Positions 37,032-49,951 of a stretch of 64,000 nt of DNA are shown in pieces; the stretch's first letter is position 1, and each line of letters starts with the position of its first letter. Source of the stretch: Flavobacterium cutihirudinis. Its GTDB lineage: Bacteria > Bacteroidota > Bacteroidia > Flavobacteriales > Flavobacteriaceae. Location: contig NZ_QRDQ01000008.1 in assembly GCF_003385895.1 (NCBI RefSeq), forward strand, positions 248,001-312,000, given 5' to 3'. A model generated the notes under the pieces. That model searched no databases and had not been told where the DNA came from. It worked only from the letters and a program-made list of their open reading frames with translations. The position numbers and the translations under genes were made by a program.

Positions 37032-37727
37032 CTAAAAGAGCCCTTTACTTTTTGCTTCTTTTACCAATTCTTCATCTGAACCGGTTCTTATTTTAAGCAA
37101 ATCTTTCAAGTTTACTTTTCGTTTTTCAATAGCCACGGCCGAAATCGGAATATAATGTGACATTTCTTCTACACGTGTTCCTTTTGAAAGGTGAAACAAA
37201 ATCTGTTTGTCAAACTGATCAATTTCGATCGAATTATGAGTCGACTGATTCAACATTTTCACTACCGACTGGCTGTAGTACTTTTCATTTTTCATCACTC
37301 TGTCGAAAGCAAAAAGCAATTCGTCAAAAGTAAGATCGTTTTTTATAATTAAACCATTCGGGTTTATTGCTCGTATAATGGTTTTTATCTTAAGCAATTC
37401 CGTATACATCGTAAGAAGGATAATCTTGCAATGCGGCATTTTATGCATAATTAGTTTTGCCAGATCTTCTCCGGAAAAAAGCTCTTTTTCTTCATAAGCG
37501 GGCATACTGATATCTAGAAAAGCGATATCAAAATTTGGTGTAGCTTCTCCATCCAATAAATCATAAGCCGATTTACAGTCGTAAGCCTGAGCAATTACAA
37601 ACTCATAATCTTTTGGATTATATCGTGTTATTGCATTTTTGTATCCTTCAATTATAAAAGGATGATCGTCGACAATTAAGATATTTCGCTTGAGTGCAGG
37701 CGAAAAAGGGGCTGTGTCAAATGTCAT
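37032..37727 (-). CDS. NarL/LuxR-type response regulator
   Basis: This 231-residue protein has a receiver domain (~14-140) with NILIVDDHPF (acid pocket), the phospho-acceptor Asp in IAFLDISMP, the switch Thr in IILLTMYTE and the conserved Lys in LIIKND. The C-terminal part (~165-231; QILFHLSKGTRVEEMSHYIP, AIEKRKVNLKDLLKI) is a LuxR-like HTH. Its start codon overlaps the last 11 bases of the histidine kinase gene, giving translational coupling and a near-certain cognate pair. Target genes are not evident from the sequence. Bacteroidota regulators of this TPR-kinase/LuxR pair type often control stress or envelope functions. Confidence 0.93.
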   Translation of the reverse strand: MTFDTAPFSPALKRNILIVDDHPFIIEGYKNAITRYNPKDYEFVIAQAYDCKSAYDLLDGEATPNFDIAFLDISMPAYEEKELFSGEDLAKLIMHKMPHCKIILLTMYTELLKIKTIIRAINPNGLIIKNDLTFDELLFAFDRVMKNEKYYSQSVVKMLNQSTHNSIEIDQFDKQILFHLSKGTRVEEMSHYIPISAVAIEKRKVNLKDLLKIRTGSDEELVKEAKSKGLF

Positions 37728-39774
37728 TATTATGTAGGTTAATTTTTTGCTCGATTGGGATTTTAACTATGAGAACCGTTCCTTCTCCTTTGGCCGATTT
37801 TATTGTGGCTGTGCCTTTACATTCTGCCGCTCTGTACATAATGTTATGTAAACCTATTCCGTTCTTCCTTCTTTTTGTGTTAAAGCCAACTCCATCATCA
37901 AAAACAGTTAAAACCAAATGATTTACTTCACTTTTAAATTCTACTCTAATGATATCAGCTTCTGCATATTTATTACAATTTTGAAGCGCTTCCTGAATAA
38001 TTCTGTATAAATTGATCTTTACAGTATTGCTTACCAAATCCCAATTTATATGAGAATCAAATGTCGTAATTAATTTTGAAAAATATGTGTTACGCTGATT
38101 TTCAAATAGTTTCTTAAGAATCGCGACAAAATTATTAATTAATTCTGATTTTTCTCTATTTAAATCATGCGAAATTTCACGGATGTCTTCTTCAATATGT
38201 TTCAACTCCGTTAAATACTTTTTTCGCTTCGTTGTTGCAAGTGCTTCATCAATTTTGTCCAAACTGTCAAGACTTATTCTCACACCAAACATTCGGCCCA
38301 AAACACCATCATGAAGTTCTTGTGCAACCTTTTGTTTTTCCTTAATTCGGGTTCTCTCAATCTCGTTTTGCTGAGAAATCATTAAATTATAAATATCTTC
38401 ATTGGCAATTTGCTGTTGCTGTTTAAAAAGCAGTTCCCTGTTTTTGGCTTGTTGGGTTTTATAAACATAAAAAAACAGTCCCAACAATGTACAAATACTA
38501 AAAACATATACTAATGTTTTGTTCTTTTCCTGAAGATTTGAGTTTTGATCTTTTATTTCATTTGTTTCATATTCAATTCGAGAAAATTTCTCCCCCATAT
38601 TTCGCTCTGCTTTCTGCAATCTTTCATTGATTCGAATGTACTGTTCCGAATACAATGATGCATTTCGCGGATCTACAACTGCAATTTGCTTTAAAGCCTC
38701 AAGCGTATTTCTTAATTTATTTGAACTTCGGGACAAAATCAAAGCCTGTCTCGAAAACTGAATCGCTCTGAAAGTATCTTTCTGAACAGCATAATATTCA
38801 GACAAATGGATTTTATTCAAAATAATACCCGAAGTCTGTTTTAAACTATCTCTTATTTGTAAAGCATCAAAGAATTGCTTCGGAAGATCTTCAAATTCGT
38901 TCAGTTTAAACTTGGAATATGCCAGATTATCCAAAAGCATTGCATAAAGTGTGGTACTTTCTTTAAATAGATTTTCCTGTTCGAGTCCTTTTTGGAAACT
39001 TGTTTTTGCTTTCGCATAATCCTTCATACTTAAATAAACAAAACCTATGTTATTAAGCGAAGTTGCTGTCAATTGCAATTCTGCGGCAATAGACTTGTCT
39101 TTCAGTATTTTTAAAGCCTTATTATGATATTCTAAAGCTTTGGCATAATCTTCTCTTTCATTATACAAAATACCTAAAAGATTATAGCACTGATATAATA
39201 AATTACTGACATTTTCTTTTTGCTTAAGAATTTTTAATGCTTTAAAAACAGTAAGTTCGCTCTCAAACAAATCACTTTCATTAAACTGAAGATTGGCTTT
39301 GCTCAAGTACGTTTTTGCCAAATTGATGTCATCATTTATGCGCAAGTATACTTTTTCTGCTTTAAAATAAACCAAAAATGCACTGTCAGAAATAGTTTGG
39401 GAGCTATAATAATCCCCCAAATAGGTATAGGCTTTTGCCAAATTTAATGAATCTTTGGTCTTTTTAGAACGCTCTACAATAAGCCTTGAGATATTACCAT
39501 ATGATTTTAAATCATTCATATTGTAATAACGGTTGGCAACCTTAAACAAATTTACTTTATTGAGAGAATCATCTTCTTCACTTAAAATGATCGTTAAAGC
39601 CTTTTTATTGTATTTCTGCTTAAAATCATACGGAAGATTAATGTCATTCGCGAGTGTGAGGTAAGTTGAAAGACTGTCTTTTGAAGAAACAATACTTTTA
39701 TCTGTGCTGTTTTTTTTGGTACAACCAAATAATGCGAGAAATAAAAGCAATAATATTTGACAATGTTTTTTCAA
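37717..39774 (-). CDS. TPR sensor histidine kinase (HisKA_3 type)
   Basis: Order of parts: a signal with a lipobox-like LALFGC, a long TPR region (~50-390, including LGILYNEREDYAKALEYHNK and NNIGFVYLSMKDYAKAKTSF), a membrane helix (TLVYVFSICTLLGLFFYVYK), a coiled coil, a HisKA_3 domain with the phospho-His in VAQELHDGVLGR, and an HATPase domain (DDGVGFN, GIGLHNI). The TPRs would be periplasmic sensors. The frame opens with a TTG at 39795, but that TTG is part of a TAnnTTTG box. The in-frame TTG at 39774, giving MKKHCQILLLL, is therefore preferred (685 residues). It overlaps the response-regulator gene by 11 bp. Confidence 0.9.
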   Translation of the reverse strand: MKKHCQILLLLFLALFGCTKKNSTDKSIVSSKDSLSTYLTLANDINLPYDFKQKYNKKALTIILSEEDDSLNKVNLFKVANRYYNMNDLKSYGNISRLIVERSKKTKDSLNLAKAYTYLGDYYSSQTISDSAFLVYFKAEKVYLRINDDINLAKTYLSKANLQFNESDLFESELTVFKALKILKQKENVSNLLYQCYNLLGILYNEREDYAKALEYHNKALKILKDKSIAAELQLTATSLNNIGFVYLSMKDYAKAKTSFQKGLEQENLFKESTTLYAMLLDNLAYSKFKLNEFEDLPKQFFDALQIRDSLKQTSGIILNKIHLSEYYAVQKDTFRAIQFSRQALILSRSSNKLRNTLEALKQIAVVDPRNASLYSEQYIRINERLQKAERNMGEKFSRIEYETNEIKDQNSNLQEKNKTLVYVFSICTLLGLFFYVYKTQQAKNRELLFKQQQQIANEDIYNLMISQQNEIERTRIKEKQKVAQELHDGVLGRMFGVRISLDSLDKIDEALATTKRKKYLTELKHIEEDIREISHDLNREKSELINNFVAILKKLFENQRNTYFSKLITTFDSHINWDLVSNTVKINLYRIIQEALQNCNKYAEADIIRVEFKSEVNHLVLTVFDDGVGFNTKRRKNGIGLHNIMYRAAECKGTATIKSAKGEGTVLIVKIPIEQKINLHNNDI

Positions 39775-39792
39775 TATGTACCTGATTTTTAC

Positions 39793-39800
39793 CAAAAATA
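39793..39800 (-). promoter_or_regulatory. -7 box of the kinase/response-regulator operon
   Basis: On the minus strand this reads TATTTTTG (TAnnTTTG). It lies 18 bp before the TTG at 39774 and contains the upstream TTG at 39795, which is therefore unlikely to be the start codon. It sits just beyond the terminator of the small-protein gene, so the operon has its own promoter. Confidence 0.5.
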
Positions 39801-39818
39801 GTAAAACTATAGATACAA

Positions 39819-39849
39819 AAAAAGGCTATCAAAAAATGATAGCCTTTTT
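39819..39849 (-). terminator. Terminator of the small repeat-protein gene
   Basis: AAAAAGGCTATC (39819-39830) pairs exactly with GATAGCCTTTTT (39838-39849) around a short A-rich loop. On the minus strand it ends in a T-run. It lies 24 bp past the stop at 39874 and separates that gene from the kinase operon. Confidence 0.9.
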
Positions 39850-39873: not shown

Positions 39874-40149
39874 TTAGTCGATTTTTCTGTTTGCTGTAGC
39901 TGATTGAGAATCAGATCCAAAACCACCAACATTAGCGAAATCAAGTTTTCTATCCTGACCTGTTTTTTGTCCACCATCGATAGGAGCCATAACATCAAGT
40001 TTTCTATCTTGTCCAGTTTTTTGTCCACCATCAATATCAACAGATGTATTCATTGCATATGTAGAAGATTTTACATTTTCAGGAGCAGAAAAAGAAGTTG
40101 CTACTACTACTAAAGAGAATAATCCGAATGTTAAAGCTGTTTTTTTCAT
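39874..40149 (-). CDS. Small secreted protein with two identical 14-residue repeats
   Basis: This 91-residue protein has a clear signal peptide (MKKTALTFGLFSLVVVATSF, cut near SFSA). The mature part contains IDGGQKTGQDRKLD twice, at residues 39-52 and 57-70, in an 18-residue period, and ends with a related ANRKID. Charged and polar, with no Cys and no membrane segment, it should be soluble in the periplasm or outside the cell. It has its own terminator and lies between a TPR-kinase operon and a LytTR regulator on the same strand. No known family was recognised. A structural role, a processed signal peptide precursor or an adhesin-like role are all possible; none is shown. Confidence 0.75.
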   Translation of the reverse strand: MKKTALTFGLFSLVVVATSFSAPENVKSSTYAMNTSVDIDGGQKTGQDRKLDVMAPIDGGQKTGQDRKLDFANVGGFGSDSQSATANRKID

Positions 40150-40324
40150 AATTTGAGGTATTTAAATGTTCGTTTGTTTTGTTTTTGGAGGAACCGCTCT
40201 CTGCGATTCGTTGGTGTAAAATTATACCCAGGAACAAAAAAAATTTACATGAAAAAACCAGTTTATGGTGAATCATGCCCAAATGATAGTCATTGGACGT
40301 CAAATCAATGTAAACGCTTCACAT

Positions 40325-41200
40325 TTAGACTTCTAAATAATTACCATCAGCGATATCTGTGATAATTGCGTCTACGTTTGCTTTGTAAGTTTTGGAAAAA
40401 GGAATCTTTTTAGGAGAGTTTTTGATGTAACAAACTGAGTTTCCGTTATGAATTCTCGCAATATAATTTTGATTGATTATATAACTGTTGTGAATTCGCA
40501 CAAACGGATGCGTCAAAACGCTCTCAAAATGTTTTAAAGTCTTAAATGCGGTCACCATTTCGCCAGATGCGAGAAATATATCTGTCGAGTTATTATCGGC
40601 TTGAAAATAGCAAATATCAGATGCATTCATATAACGGTAATCTCCATATGATTTTACGCAGATTACGAGTGGTTTTTCTGTCTCAAGAATAATTCGTTGA
40701 TTTTCTATAATCCCAGGCTTATTATCTTCAATTACGTCCGGAATTTCGATAATAGACTCAACTTCTTTTAAATCAATAACTTGCGCGGGAGTTTCGACAA
40801 AACGTGTCTCTTTTGGCTCAGAAAGGGTCTTTTCCTGCTTTAAAAGGGTCTTTATCAGATCAATATGCGTTAAAGGTTTTAAAATATAATCAAAAACGCC
40901 GTACTGAATCGCATCAAAAGCCAGCTCTTTTGTTGACGTTGTAATGATGATTTTCGGTATAATAGATAAATACCGATACAATTCGCCGATGAAAGCCAGA
41001 GAAAGGTTACTTTGTGAATCTTCGGGATTGATTTCTAAAAAAATAAAGGCCGGACGATGCTCTAAAACTAAATTCAAACCCTGATGGTAATTCGTAGCAG
41101 AGGCTATAAAAGTTAATTCTGAAAAACCTTCAGTAACAATTCTGGTTTTCAAAACACTTTCAGCGTCATTGTCAATAATGATATACGAATATTTTTTCAA
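40325..41200 (-). CDS. LytTR-type response regulator with Glu at the phospho-acceptor site
   Basis: This 291-residue protein has a receiver domain at ~1-125 (IIIDNDAE, IIITTSTKEL, FDYILKPL) and a LytTR DNA-binding domain at ~185-285 (VKSYGDYRYMNASDICYFQA, FVRIHNSYIINQNYI). The position expected to hold the phospho-accepting Asp is Glu56, in FIFLEINPE, so normal phosphorylation should be impossible. The start is a TTG at 41200: the only upstream codons run to a stop without an ATG, and the next ATG is deep inside the gene. No kinase gene is adjacent in an operon. An active-state mimic or phosphorylation-independent control is inferred. Confidence 0.88.
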   Translation of the reverse strand: MKKYSYIIIDNDAESVLKTRIVTEGFSELTFIASATNYHQGLNLVLEHRPAFIFLEINPEDSQSNLSLAFIGELYRYLSIIPKIIITTSTKELAFDAIQYGVFDYILKPLTHIDLIKTLLKQEKTLSEPKETRFVETPAQVIDLKEVESIIEIPDVIEDNKPGIIENQRIILETEKPLVICVKSYGDYRYMNASDICYFQADNNSTDIFLASGEMVTAFKTLKHFESVLTHPFVRIHNSYIINQNYIARIHNGNSVCYIKNSPKKIPFSKTYKANVDAIITDIADGNYLEV

Positions 41201-45501: not shown

Positions 45502-48186
45502 TTAGTTCACAATAATTTTCTTCACAGTTCGTCTGTTTCCGTCGATAACCGTCACGAAATACATTCCGGACACAACGTTTGAAAGCTGAATGTTGTGATT
45601 AAAGTGAGTCGTATTCTCAAAAGTTTTAGAATAAACAGTTCTTCCCAAAACATCATGCACAAAAATCTTTGCTCCCGAACCTGAATTACTTTCAAACTCA
45701 ACCGCAAAACTTCCTTTGTTTGGATTTGGATAAAGACTAAAATCAATATTTTCAAAATCTTCATTTCCAAGTGTGAAAACCTGACCGCAAATAGTAATCG
45801 AAGCCGAATTTACAGTTCCAAAACTTCCGACAACTGCATCTCTTATCCTGAATGTCCAAGTTCCTGCAGGATTTTCACCATTAAAAGCGCTCAAAAGATC
45901 TACCGGAACAACAATTTGCTCTGTCGTTTTTGAACAATCTATTTCAGCTCCTGCATCATCAAACTGAAATACCTTAGTTCCACTTGAACCGCCACAGCTT
46001 TTATTAAACAATCGCACAACGGTTCCTTGTGGGCTTACCATTTGAATTTCTAAATCGGAAAAATTTTCATGTGTTATGTTAACCGAAACATTCACATCAG
46101 AAACCACCGCATCTGATGCCGGAACAGTTACCGATTTGGTAAAAAATGTTGTGGTATTTGGAATTGAAAATGCACTTTCGAAGCTATACGGATCACAAGT
46201 TATAGACGACCTATATCCTACAGCAAAAGCTTTTTTATTTAATGCATAATAAATATTATCGGTCGGCTGAATTAAGATTCTGCAATATTTCGCATCTGGC
46301 ACACTTGACGGAAGTGTAATCACTTCAGAGCCATCATTTGGCGTATTTGCAGCTAACGTTATCGGAAAATTTGCTCCGCCATCTGTAGACAATTTGATAT
46401 TAACTGCAGAAGACCCTGGAAGCGTATTTGTATTTGTAACATTCCAAGTTACCGTTTGCGCTACATCTTGACGCCAACTTACATTTTCAGATGCATGTGA
46501 TGTAACTTCAAAAGGCCCTGCAGAAGCAGAAACGGTTACCATCATTTCATCAGTATTCGTTTGTCCTGAACCTAAAGCAGCATTATCTCTTCCTGTTAAA
46601 GTAAAATGCAACGTTCTTGCAATAGACGAAACAGACTCCCACTTAGTGGTTAAAATATTTTGAAGAACTGAACTAAAGTCAGGCATATAGCGCACTGACG
46701 AGCTTCCTGGCTTAACTGATCTAAATAACGGTCCATCTGGTTTTGTGGGATATGCAATACTTTTATCTTCGGTTGTTGTTATTGAATTATCATTTTGCTC
46801 CCAATTATATGTTATGGTATCGCCTTCTGGATCTGAACCGGAACCAGTCAAAACAAAAGGAGTACTAATTGGGATTACGTAATCGTTTCCTGCAATAATT
46901 GCGGGAGGATTATTAGTTAAAGATGTGTCTACCGGACAAGTTTTTCTCGCAAGATTCTCCTGAATTTGAAGAATACTGGCGTAAGCGAAATAATCATCTG
47001 AATTATCCTGGACGTCATACTTTGTTATACCGGCGTACCCCATAATAGTAGAACCACTTCCTGGCTCGATATTTACACTGCTACGTTCACCTGAATCAAA
47101 AGAAAATGTATGATTTGCACCTAATTGATGTCCCATTTCATGCGCCACAAAATCGATATCAAAAGTATCTCCTTCAGGTCTACCATCAGATGGGGAAGTA
47201 TACGCGCTTCCTTTTGCTAAATCTTCATTATCAACTGGACTTACGCAAACACAACCTATGCAACCTGCGTTCCCTCCACCTCCTGAAGCACCAAATAAGT
47301 GGCCCATATCGTAATTACCATCTCCGATAACTGTAGTCAGTGTTTTCTGGACTGCCTTTGGCCATGTTGCGCCAGGATCTGCAGTTCCTTGCGCCGGAGG
47401 ATCATAAGGATCGGTTTCTGCATCTATATAAATTACCTGATCTGTATTTGCTATCAAAATCAATTTAACGGCAAGATCTTTATTAAAAACTCCATTTACT
47501 CGTGTCAGTGTTGCATTCATTCCTGCCAATGCTAATGGTTTTGTCCCACCAAAATAGGTGGTATACTCAGCCGTGCAGGATAATGCTAAACGTAGTGTTT
47601 TAAAAACTTTCGAATTTGATGCTGTCTTTGCTGTTTTTGCAGTCGCACTTTTATTCAGAGCCGAATCAATTGTAGTACATAAAAGCTTATCAGACAGCAA
47701 TGATTTTTTTGCAAAGAGTACGTATTCGGTTTTATTTTCAGGATTCTCTTCTATAAATTCGGTTGCTTTATCTGCACGAAATACCATTGTCTGCAAACCT
47801 AAAGGCGAAACACTAAAATGAATTTTTGCTGTTTTATCATCCAAACCAGAACCTTCATAAGATCTAATTTCAGGATATTTCGCCTGTAATTCAGGTTCAA
47901 AATTCGAAGATTCCCAAACAATAAATCGCTCCAGTTTTCCATCACTATTCGGAATGCTAATTTCAGCCGTATTACTTTTTGAAGTTATGCTTGTTACAGG
48001 TGCAAGTTTCGTTTGCAGCCGTTCAGTATTTAATCGATAATATAACTTGCCTGAGTCTGAAACCGAAGCATTTGTGCTTTTGCTCAAGACAGAAACGGCA
48101 TTAGATTTTTGCCATAAATCATCACTTTGCTGCGCTAAACCGGCAACGCTCCAAAAGATAAATAAAAAAAGTAAAAGTTTTTTCAT
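45502..48186 (-). CDS. Secreted zinc metalloprotease with P-domain and T9SS tail
   Basis: From the ATG at 48186 the protein is 894 residues (signal peptide ending AGLAQQ); the earlier frame start at 48240 adds 18 residues ahead of the signal and is rejected. After a propeptide-like region, the reprolysin-type catalytic domain carries HEMGHQLGANH (HExxHxxGxxH) and a downstream Met-turn candidate SGSTIMGYAG. An Ig-like region follows, then a proprotein-convertase P-domain (VSVNITHENFSDLEIQMVSP, PAGTWTFRIRDAVVG). A T9SS type A sorting tail ends the protein (LYPNPNKGSFAVEF, NVVSGMYFVTVIDGNR). It should be a secreted or surface protease used for nutrition or processing. It is monocistronic. Confidence 0.92.
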   Translation of the reverse strand: MKKLLLFLFIFWSVAGLAQQSDDLWQKSNAVSVLSKSTNASVSDSGKLYYRLNTERLQTKLAPVTSITSKSNTAEISIPNSDGKLERFIVWESSNFEPELQAKYPEIRSYEGSGLDDKTAKIHFSVSPLGLQTMVFRADKATEFIEENPENKTEYVLFAKKSLLSDKLLCTTIDSALNKSATAKTAKTASNSKVFKTLRLALSCTAEYTTYFGGTKPLALAGMNATLTRVNGVFNKDLAVKLILIANTDQVIYIDAETDPYDPPAQGTADPGATWPKAVQKTLTTVIGDGNYDMGHLFGASGGGGNAGCIGCVCVSPVDNEDLAKGSAYTSPSDGRPEGDTFDIDFVAHEMGHQLGANHTFSFDSGERSSVNIEPGSGSTIMGYAGITKYDVQDNSDDYFAYASILQIQENLARKTCPVDTSLTNNPPAIIAGNDYVIPISTPFVLTGSGSDPEGDTITYNWEQNDNSITTTEDKSIAYPTKPDGPLFRSVKPGSSSVRYMPDFSSVLQNILTTKWESVSSIARTLHFTLTGRDNAALGSGQTNTDEMMVTVSASAGPFEVTSHASENVSWRQDVAQTVTWNVTNTNTLPGSSAVNIKLSTDGGANFPITLAANTPNDGSEVITLPSSVPDAKYCRILIQPTDNIYYALNKKAFAVGYRSSITCDPYSFESAFSIPNTTTFFTKSVTVPASDAVVSDVNVSVNITHENFSDLEIQMVSPQGTVVRLFNKSCGGSSGTKVFQFDDAGAEIDCSKTTEQIVVPVDLLSAFNGENPAGTWTFRIRDAVVGSFGTVNSASITICGQVFTLGNEDFENIDFSLYPNPNKGSFAVEFESNSGSGAKIFVHDVLGRTVYSKTFENTTHFNHNIQLSNVVSGMYFVTVIDGNRRTVKKIIVN

Positions 48187-48207
48187 AAGTCGCGGCGATT
48201 GATAATT

Positions 48208-48215
48208 CAAAATTA
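48208..48215 (-). promoter_or_regulatory. -7 box upstream of the metalloprotease gene
   Basis: On the minus strand this reads TAATTTTG (TAnnTTTG), 21 bp before the ATG at 48186. This supports the shorter start, since the ATG at 48240 lies upstream of the box. Confidence 0.5.
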
Positions 48216-48353
48216 AAGGAATTAAACCGAATTCTCCCATATAAACGACATTTAATACTTTTTACTCGACGAGTTGGTTCTTTTTCACAAAAAGAAACAT
48301 CCAGATACTAAAAAAATCAATTCACGTTGGTATCAAATTCAAAATAGATAGTA

Positions 48354-48382: not shown

Positions 48383-49315
48383 TTGAAGCTCTTTCATTCT
48401 ATAAACGATTTCCAGTCGACCAAGAAAACAATTTTAACTCTTGGTACCTTTGATGGCGTGCATTTTGGTCATAAAAAAATTCTTGAACGAATTACACAAA
48501 ATACTGAAGATGGTAAATACGAAAGTTTAGTACTTACTTTTTTTCCGCATCCAAGAATGGTTTTGCAGGAAAAATCAGAAATAAAACTTCTGAATACAAT
48601 TGCTGAAAAAACAAAACTTCTAGAGAAAACCGGAATTGAAAATCTGATCATTCATCCTTTTGACGAAAGCTTTTCAAGATTAACTGCCGAGGAATTCGTG
48701 CATTCTATTTTAGTGGATCAATTTCATATTCAAAAAATAATAATTGGACACGATCACCGATTTGGAAGAAACAGAACTGCTGATATTAATGATTTAATTG
48801 CTTTTGGAGCAGAATATGGTTTCGAAGTAGAACAAATTTCTGCACAGGAAATTCAGGATGTTTCTGTAAGTTCAACGAAAATCAGAAAAGCATTAAACGA
48901 AGGAAATATGGCTTTAGCCAATGATTATCTGGGTTATAATTACTTTTTATCGGGCGAAGTTGTGAAAGGAAAACAATTGGGAAGAACAATTGGTTTTCCA
49001 ACTGCAAACATCAAAATTGAGGAAGATTATAAATTAATTCCGAAAACGGGTGTTTATGCCGTAAAAGCAATTGTAGACCAAAAAGAAGTTTTTGGAATGA
49101 TGAATATTGGTTTCAATCCAACTGTCAATGGGCAACAACAAACTATTGAAGTCCACTTATTTGATTTTGATCAAGATATTTACGGTCTACAAATCGAAGT
49201 TTCATTATTAAAATATCTTCGCGAGGAACAAAAATTTGGTTCGATTGATTTATTGAAAGAACAATTAAATCAGGATAAATTGAATGCTTTGGATTTTGTG
49301 AGCAAACTTCAATAG
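48383..49315 (+). CDS. ribF: Bifunctional riboflavin kinase / FAD synthetase
   Basis: From the TTG at 48383 the protein is 310 residues, beginning MKLFHSINDFQ. The frame is open from a TTG at 48359, but that codon is inside the promoter -7 box. The N-terminal FAD synthetase domain shows LTLGTFDGVHFGHKKIL and IIGHDHRFGRNR; the C-terminal riboflavin kinase domain shows KGKQLGRTIGFPTANI and GVYAVKAIV, MMNIGFNPTVNG. It makes FMN and FAD from riboflavin in the cytoplasm. Its last ~18 bases are copied in the tandem repeat that follows. Confidence 0.95.
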   Translation: MKLFHSINDFQSTKKTILTLGTFDGVHFGHKKILERITQNTEDGKYESLVLTFFPHPRMVLQEKSEIKLLNTIAEKTKLLEKTGIENLIIHPFDESFSRLTAEEFVHSILVDQFHIQKIIIGHDHRFGRNRTADINDLIAFGAEYGFEVEQISAQEIQDVSVSSTKIRKALNEGNMALANDYLGYNYFLSGEVVKGKQLGRTIGFPTANIKIEEDYKLIPKTGVYAVKAIVDQKEVFGMMNIGFNPTVNGQQQTIEVHLFDFDQDIYGLQIEVSLLKYLREEQKFGSIDLLKEQLNQDKLNALDFVSKLQ

Positions 49316-49880
49316 TTCCTTTCAGATATATAGTCCCTACGGGACAAAACGGAATGGTTTATAATACATTTCTACCGATATAAAATCTCTACGAGATATA
49401 CGCTTCGTTAACAGCTACTCCGTTAGGAGTTAAATATCGGTAGCAAAAAAAATATTACACCTGCATTACTGTCCTGTAAGGACTTCAGATTTTCTGAGCA
49501 AACTTCAGAAATTACTTCTAGATATATAGTCCCTACAGGACAAAACGGAATGGTTTATAATACATTTCTACCGATATAAAATCTCTACGAGATATGTTCT
49601 TCATTAACAACTACTCCCGTTAGGAGTTAAATATCGGTAGCAAAAAAAAATATCACACTGCATGAATGTCCTGTAAGGACTTTAGATTCTCTGAGCAAAC
49701 TTCAATAGTTACTTCCAGATATTATAGTCCCTACAGGACAAAATGGAATGGTTTATAAAACATTTCTACCGATATAAAATCTCTACGAGATATGTTCTTC
49801 ATTAACAACTACTCCGTTAGGAGTTAAATATCGGTAGCAAAAAAAATATCGCACCTGCATGAATGTCCTGTAAGGACTTT
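49298..49880. repeat. Three tandem ~197-bp repeats that begin in the 3' end of ribF
   Basis: Copies start at 49298, 49494 and 49691 (periods 196 and 197). Each begins TGAGCAAACTTCA, which in copy 1 is the end of ribF including its stop. The copies then share a GTCCCTAC-GGGAC-type hairpin, CTACCGATAT paired with ATATCGGTAG around a CTCCGTTAGGAG palindrome, and GTCCTGTAAGGAC. Together they fill most of the 699-bp gap 49316-50014. No ORF is conserved in them. Copies are ~90% alike by eye. They may be REP-like or encode a structured RNA. Confidence 0.9.
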
Positions 49881-49951
49881 ACTTATTTCGGGGCATTATC
49901 ACCTCTATACAAATTTTACCCATTTTAAATCATTGTCGTTATTTTTTTTAG

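Follow-up and report, generated by a model that had tools for sequence, protein, structure and literature searches.

What does a small exported protein with two identical 14-residue units do beside a histidine kinase whose sensor domain is made of TPR repeats? The question is raised by a locus in the window, by which we mean the whole stretch of 64,000 nucleotides that was analysed, taken from a 4.9 Mb genome whose relatives, by a search with the precursor, are Flavobacterium species. A sequence-only reading had suggested that the repeats might be processed and sensed. Our analysis supports processing and sensing by the TPR kinase, though processing, secretion past the outer membrane and binding are inference, and the locus is built like a peptide-signal precursor paired with its own sensor kinase. 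Read along the minus strand, it consists of a LytTR regulator, a 91-aa exported protein, a terminator-like hairpin, a TPR histidine kinase and a response regulator, in that order, with the following features.

37032..37727, minus strand: response regulator with a receiver Asp.
37717..39795, minus strand: histidine kinase with a TTG start, a TPR superhelix at about residues 38-410, and sub-threshold HisKA_3 and HATPase_c matches.
39819..39849, minus strand: terminator-like hairpin (inverted repeat) between the propeptide gene and the kinase gene.
39874..40149, minus strand: 91-aa propeptide with an ATG start, consisting of a Sec-type leader MKKTALTFGLFSLVVVATSF (assigned by eye), a linker and the units.
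39877..39939, minus strand: C-terminal element FANVGGFGSDSQSATANRKID of the propeptide, with counterparts in near relatives.
39940..39981, minus strand: second 14-residue unit IDGGQKTGQDRKLD, residues 57-70, identical to the first.
39994..40035, minus strand: first 14-residue unit IDGGQKTGQDRKLD, residues 39-52.
40216..40227, minus strand: promoter-like block GTATAATTTTAC, conserved among 25 aligned loci chosen from the 107.
40268..40314, minus strand: LytTR-type operator of direct repeats TTTAC, ATGAC and TTCAC with an exact 21-bp period.
40325..41200, minus strand: LytTR regulator with Glu replacing the receiver Asp.

The exported protein with its two identical units is as the sequence-only reading described it, the ORF carrying IDGGQKTGQDRKLD from residues 39 and 57, and the gene coordinates agree with a position between the TPR kinase and the LytTR regulator on one strand. 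The two copies lie 54 nt apart, and their 42-nt sequences differ at four bases, all synonymous. A third, partial unit with an RKID end had also been proposed; the residues ANRKID are present, but they are part of the separate C-terminal element and not of a partial 14-mer. The LytTR-type repeats, the terminator and the family-wide spread of the arrangement were absent from that reading. The −7 element of Bacteroidota promoters is TAnnTTTG. The kinase frame opens at TTG, not ATG, and several orthologues also have no ATG near the start.

Among the nearest genes in the window, Pfam recognizes a WYL regulator, two DinB proteins, a thiL-type protein, a glycyl-tRNA synthetase, a TPR protein, a ComF-type protein and a metalloprotease. 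A large metalloprotease of the M12B type, which has a P-domain and a tail for type IX secretion (window 45505-48240, minus strand), stays near the locus in many close relatives; it is conceivable as a processing enzyme. Further on, at 49287-49881, a 197-bp unit occurs in three head-to-tail copies with 91% matches.

A search with the window's protein matched 103 of 199 same-genus genomes at E<=0.1, and a profile built from 22 precursors matched 119 of the 199 at E<=0.01 (best E of 1.5e-9 or better in 114, weak in the other five). From the 103 genomes, G070 and G145 were left out, and G000 is the window's own; 100 loci remained, to which 12 more were added. The script found no precursor in L059, L075 and L116, L129 has none, L058 and L130 were added by hand, and L253 and L257 were excluded from the further 12, which left 107 precursors, the window's among them. 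Adding the named Flavobacterium loci brought the set to 186 precursors, of which 166 are distinct; we refer to these as type I. A precursor and a kinase are also present in Flavobacterium johnsoniae strain CI04 (L197). Outside the genus, the profile matched 18 of 397 genomes at E<=0.01, three of these being of the genus itself; the matches in the other 15 are weak (E 8.5e-4 to 0.01), and homology beyond the genus was not accepted from this search. ORFs were extracted by script from only two of those 15 loci, and both were unrelated exported proteins. Precursors of other genera do not match the family profile, and of 187 stretches of viral contigs that fit a pattern, none was confirmed.

The type I precursors share a conserved leader (MKKxxLTxGLFSLVMVLTSF-like), and after it comes a species-dependent unit in one to six exact copies; examples include LTGNQSVGGNQKVD, AAGSGSTGGNVRLD in five copies, IGGRSSQGE in six and EIGGGNADRRS in six. 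Copy number thus varies, an outcome in favour of the sequence-only reading, which had proposed comparing it among orthologues. Exact repeats of >=6 aa are present in 112 of the 166 distinct precursors and in only 2 of 830 shuffled sequences, which excludes chance; the remaining 54 have no exact repeat of this length. Up to 105 distinct unit strings were counted in the 112 repeat-bearing precursors, an upper bound since a script decided where units begin and end. In 86 of these 112, no more than three residues separate the end of the last exact copy from the C-terminus, which suggests that the C-terminus of the precursor is the natural end of a unit. A basic-acidic end ([KR], at most one residue, then D/E) closes 121 of the 166 type I precursors and 19 of 51 diverged ones.

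Comparison of the copies within genes shows strong purifying selection for units identical in protein. Between copies in 73 genes, pS is 0.326 and pN 0.0068, and in 57 of the 70 genes having any difference the differences are synonymous only. The unit was picked by protein identity, which favours a low pN. A shift-based count over the whole repeat region, spacers included, gives a pS of 0.325 and a pN of 0.104, pN being the lower of the two in 55 of 56 genes, and a pN/pS of 0.32, against 0.02 for the units only. From these values one infers that the copies are old and kept alike in protein, and that from one species to the next all copies in a gene change together. In F. hydrophilum, for instance, both units are IDGNQSVGQSRKVD; F. 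limi, F. ajazii, F. pectinovorum, F. hibisci and F. salmonis have IDGNQSAGQSRKVD twice.

Conservation of the neighbourhood had been put forward as the other check, and it too came out in favour, the precursor immediately preceding the TPR kinase in 102 of the 103 loci whose contig extends far enough. In the sole exception (L119), the kinase start lies beside the precursor, but its frame is interrupted. A response regulator follows the kinase in 99 of the 102 loci, and the LytTR gene is directly upstream of the precursor in 86; in the remaining 16, it is 0.8-4.7 kb off or absent from the locus. Adjacency alone is weak evidence, because the block from glyS to thiL is syntenic in many of the 100 loci. 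Of the 16 loci without LytTR directly upstream, 15 keep the precursor-kinase pair and 14 the strict operator triple.

Diverged TPR kinases (mostly 33-46% identical) are found in genomes lacking this type of precursor, or as second copies. By eye, a small exported ORF lies upstream of the diverged kinase in 25 of 28 loci of the genus, picked from a list, and in 27 of the 28 best-matching loci from other genera of the family; three of the former and one of the latter have none. Further kinases in the same loci are often without such an ORF, as with seven in L233, the fourth in L234 and the second in L235. In a scripted control with stop-to-stop ORFs, 153 of 161 TPR kinases had a small exported ORF before them, compared with 38 of 393 other long ORFs. 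The same control restricted to ATG starts gave 68 of 147 and 25 of 336, a low yield since many kinases have no upstream ATG. Most of the control loci (L031-L130 and L248-L259) were found via the precursor, and a few genuine precursor-kinase pairs are counted among the control hits; for these reasons, the counts from loci found by their kinase (25/28 and 27/28) are the fairer ones.

Many diverged precursors have a lipobox-like Cys (by eye), and several carry tandem units (three in L239, six in L282, five in L285, six in L290, seven in L296). The L317 precursor has six ETLACDDCAHDSDDR-like units; each bears cysteines (CDDCAHDSDDR), which suggests disulfide or metal-bound peptides. Two to four precursor genes with different leaders and similar, PIIIVKKD-like C-termini occur in L240, L243, L244, L261, L264, L298 and L301. 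In three of these loci (L240, L298 and L301), the kinase is preceded by a run of three to four small precursor genes, whose products end in PIIIPKKD or PVIIPKKD, or in NPILIIKND or SPILIIKND. The number of kinases can vary as well. In L233 (G111:C39:33000-52500), one precursor is followed by eight TPR-kinase matches, with response regulator genes after the seventh and eighth, and this string is a sensor expansion. L234 (G073:C1:709000-725000) has three tandem precursor-kinase pairs, whose precursors differ in their C-termini (SGKRP, GGTKKQD and TGTKKPD).

With a profile built from 21 kinases, matches at E<=1e-60 were obtained in 39 of 196 genomes of the order. These comprise 29 of the family itself, one of another family (G608, where two matches are nearly full-length), and nine of a third family, whose matches start only at position 51 of the profile or later.

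If the units are ligands of the kinase, one might expect unit and sensor domain to diverge together. Over 102 loci, the distance between the last 14 residues of the precursors correlates with TPR distance when the kinase domain is controlled for (partial r 0.373, p 0.001), and hardly with kinase-domain distance when the TPR domain is controlled for (0.052, p 0.076). The leader gives the opposite pattern (TPR given kinase 0.057, p 0.128; kinase given TPR 0.414, p 0.001), and the whole post-leader region is unspecific (0.212 and 0.161, respectively, both p 0.001). With thiL, LytTR and the response regulator added to the kinase domain as controls (59 loci), the last unit still follows the TPR domain (partial r 0.267, permutation p 0.001); for last unit and kinase domain the value is 0.080 (p 0.057), and for leader and TPR domain −0.021 (p 0.617). 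A site-level scan did not single out the TPR domain, its top 30 comprising 14 TPR sites (388 eligible) and 14 kinase-domain sites (196 eligible). The Mantel permutations ignore phylogeny. Because of these two points, the co-divergence of unit and TPR domain counts as moderate support; that the two change together between species fits a self-recognition (pheromone-like) system.

An AlphaFold2 model of the kinase, for which 62 sequences of the window and the named loci were aligned, has a mean pLDDT of 81 and a confident TPR superhelix at about residues 38-410. Judged by eye, this domain lies between an N-terminal signal or lipobox-like stretch and a hydrophobic stretch (transmembrane at about 428-446), so it is not a stand-alone cytoplasmic receptor. 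Cys25, which closes the N-terminal hydrophobic stretch, is lipobox-like and invariant in the 62 sequences. The best VIA matches to the TPR domain are eukaryotic LGN chains, and every chain of prokaryotic origin among the first 30 rows belongs to an NprR or Rap receptor (Z 23-26, rmsd 3.2-6.7, 13-20% identity, residues ~34-413); the TPR sequence also matches RapF weakly (E 3e-6). The modelling thus shows that the predicted TPR fold resembles that of pheromone receptors. This is a weak criterion, because TPR folds are common and resemble many unrelated proteins, and a predicted fold in common with Rap and NprR does not establish a common function.

The control region of the precursor gene is conserved too. 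Upstream of the precursor, three [TA][TC]NAC repeats spaced at exactly 21 bp are found in 85 of 107 loci by a strict pattern and in 97 by a loose one, against means of 0.0 and 6.1 in ten shuffles; other precursor types have the strict triple in 5 of 51 cases. LytTR proteins bind direct repeats of about 21-bp period, according to the available parts of two papers (PMC6193735, PMC11347149). Direct repeats with the period expected of a LytTR-regulated promoter are therefore present near the precursor promoter, though there are no binding data. In its own genome, the pattern of the first two repeats has one match, which is the precursor promoter, and a reversed control pattern has three, so that this uniqueness carries no statistical weight. 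A hairpin with a T-run follows the precursor stop in 106 of 107 genes, and in one after shuffling.

In 97 of 98 type I orthologues, the LytTR protein has Glu at the position of the receiver Asp, as do only 20 of 44 proteins outside type I; the response regulator keeps its Asp in 100 of 100 aligned proteins. From these residues, one may infer that the response regulator is the likely phosphate acceptor and that the LytTR protein may act without phosphorylation.

Several known systems offer comparisons. In the accessible portion of PMC11343458, the RRNPPA systems are described as having a Sec-exported propeptide of 50-120 aa encoded beside a TPR receptor gene, the peptide being usually C-terminal and sometimes present in one to four copies. 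As in Rap-Phr and other RRNPPA pairs of Bacillota, the exported propeptide gene here adjoins the gene for a TPR receptor with a similar superhelix. However, RRNPPA receptors stand alone in the cytoplasm and need peptide import, whereas the TPR domain of this Bacteroidota system is predicted to be periplasmic and is joined to a histidine kinase, and the precursor promoter has LytTR-type repeats.

A peptide precursor beside a kinase and a regulator is also the layout of agr, ComCDE and ComP, and AgrA and ComE are LytTR regulators; an AgrA model gave a weak match. Here, however, the sensor domain is a TPR superhelix and not a polytopic membrane domain as in agr-type systems, the LytTR protein has Glu at the receiver Asp, and a separate response regulator follows the kinase. 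No AgrB-like processing or export gene was found among the eight window neighbours scanned. The yeast alpha-factor precursor likewise carries several identical peptide copies in one exported protein, but organism, protease signals and receptor differ. LytTR regulatory systems and the triple-repeat operators of RcoM1 and CoxC offer a further parallel, with direct repeats about two helical turns apart, three of them in RcoM1 and CoxC (PMC6193735, PMC11347149, as far as their available sections go), but no inhibitory membrane protein or MHYT domain was seen at the locus. The system would work like RRNPPA and agr-type signalling, yet fails a defining feature of each.

The literature searches listed no account of this system and no such peptide quorum sensing for Bacteroidota. 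A survey (PMC8895600, seen in part) credits Bacteroidota only with homologues of parts of known pathways, and the accessible text of a transcriptome paper on F. psychrophilum (PMC9723704) returned no passage on the system for the terms tried.

We consider it probable that the 91-aa protein is a multicopy precursor of a peptide signal that the adjacent kinase senses in the periplasm; processing, binding and transfer from cell to cell are inferred. The Sec pathway would export the precursor, and cleavage would release units of about 9-16 residues, which would be ligands of the superhelical TPR domain displayed in the periplasm by the kinase, which would signal on via the response regulator encoded after it. 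The LytTR protein would act on the three 21-bp-spaced repeats and so control transcription of the precursor gene, which would stop at its own terminator. Comparison of genomes is enough to establish the precursor anatomy, the purifying selection on units, the gene pairing, the operator-like repeats and the terminator-like hairpin. Export, cleavage, binding, the direction of the response, binding by LytTR and travel of the peptide between cells are inferred.

The alternative that should be kept in mind most is a private periplasmic ligand, in which the precursor and its fragments never leave the periplasm and report on export or envelope proteolysis without any signal between cells. It coincides with the signalling explanation up to the sensing step, and we regard it as possible, if doubtful. 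One would expect to find sensor and precursor alike in the periplasm, and the lipobox-like Cys of many diverged precursors (by eye) together with Cys25 of the kinase would keep both in the envelope. A stress gauge, however, needs no species-specific units, of which there are up to 105, and these distinct units and their co-divergence with the TPR domain fit recognition specificity better.

That the repeat protein is never processed, serving some structural, metal-binding or ligand-binding role beside the kinase by happenstance, is improbable. Its units are rich in Gly, Ser and Asn, and the glyS-to-thiL synteny weakens adjacency as evidence; yet the pair holds together in nearly all loci without LytTR directly upstream, unalignable precursors recur before diverged kinases, and the units tend to finish where the precursor does and diverge in step with the TPR domain. 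Little credence can be given to a secreted antimicrobial or modified (RiPP-like) peptide with the kinase as its regulator, even though the precursors are small, repeated, hypervariable, exported and LytTR-linked and streptococcal bacteriocin genes are controlled by LytTR regulators (PMC6193735, in the part available). Pfam identifies no known modification enzyme among the eight window neighbours (other loci were checked only for these neighbours), the precursors have no Pfam or NCBIfam family, and an NCBIfam RiPP model gave one noise-level match only, to a diverged precursor.

Returning to the peptide signal sensed by the TPR kinase, the evidence points to a so far undescribed signalling system that is widespread in flavobacteria. 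A wider claim, for which we see even chances, is that of a pheromone system spanning the Flavobacteriaceae, with species-coded tandem-unit precursors and periplasmic TPR kinases as a receptor class outside agr and RRNPPA, kinase and code co-evolving and expanding; the expansions would take the form of one precursor before a string of kinases or of several precursor-kinase pairs in a row. If true, a large and common bacterial family would have readable peptide codes with the receptor gene next door, and synthetic peptides would allow direct tests of self-recognition, crosstalk and the evolution of signals. The many TPR sensor kinases that are still orphans would also gain a likely class of ligand.
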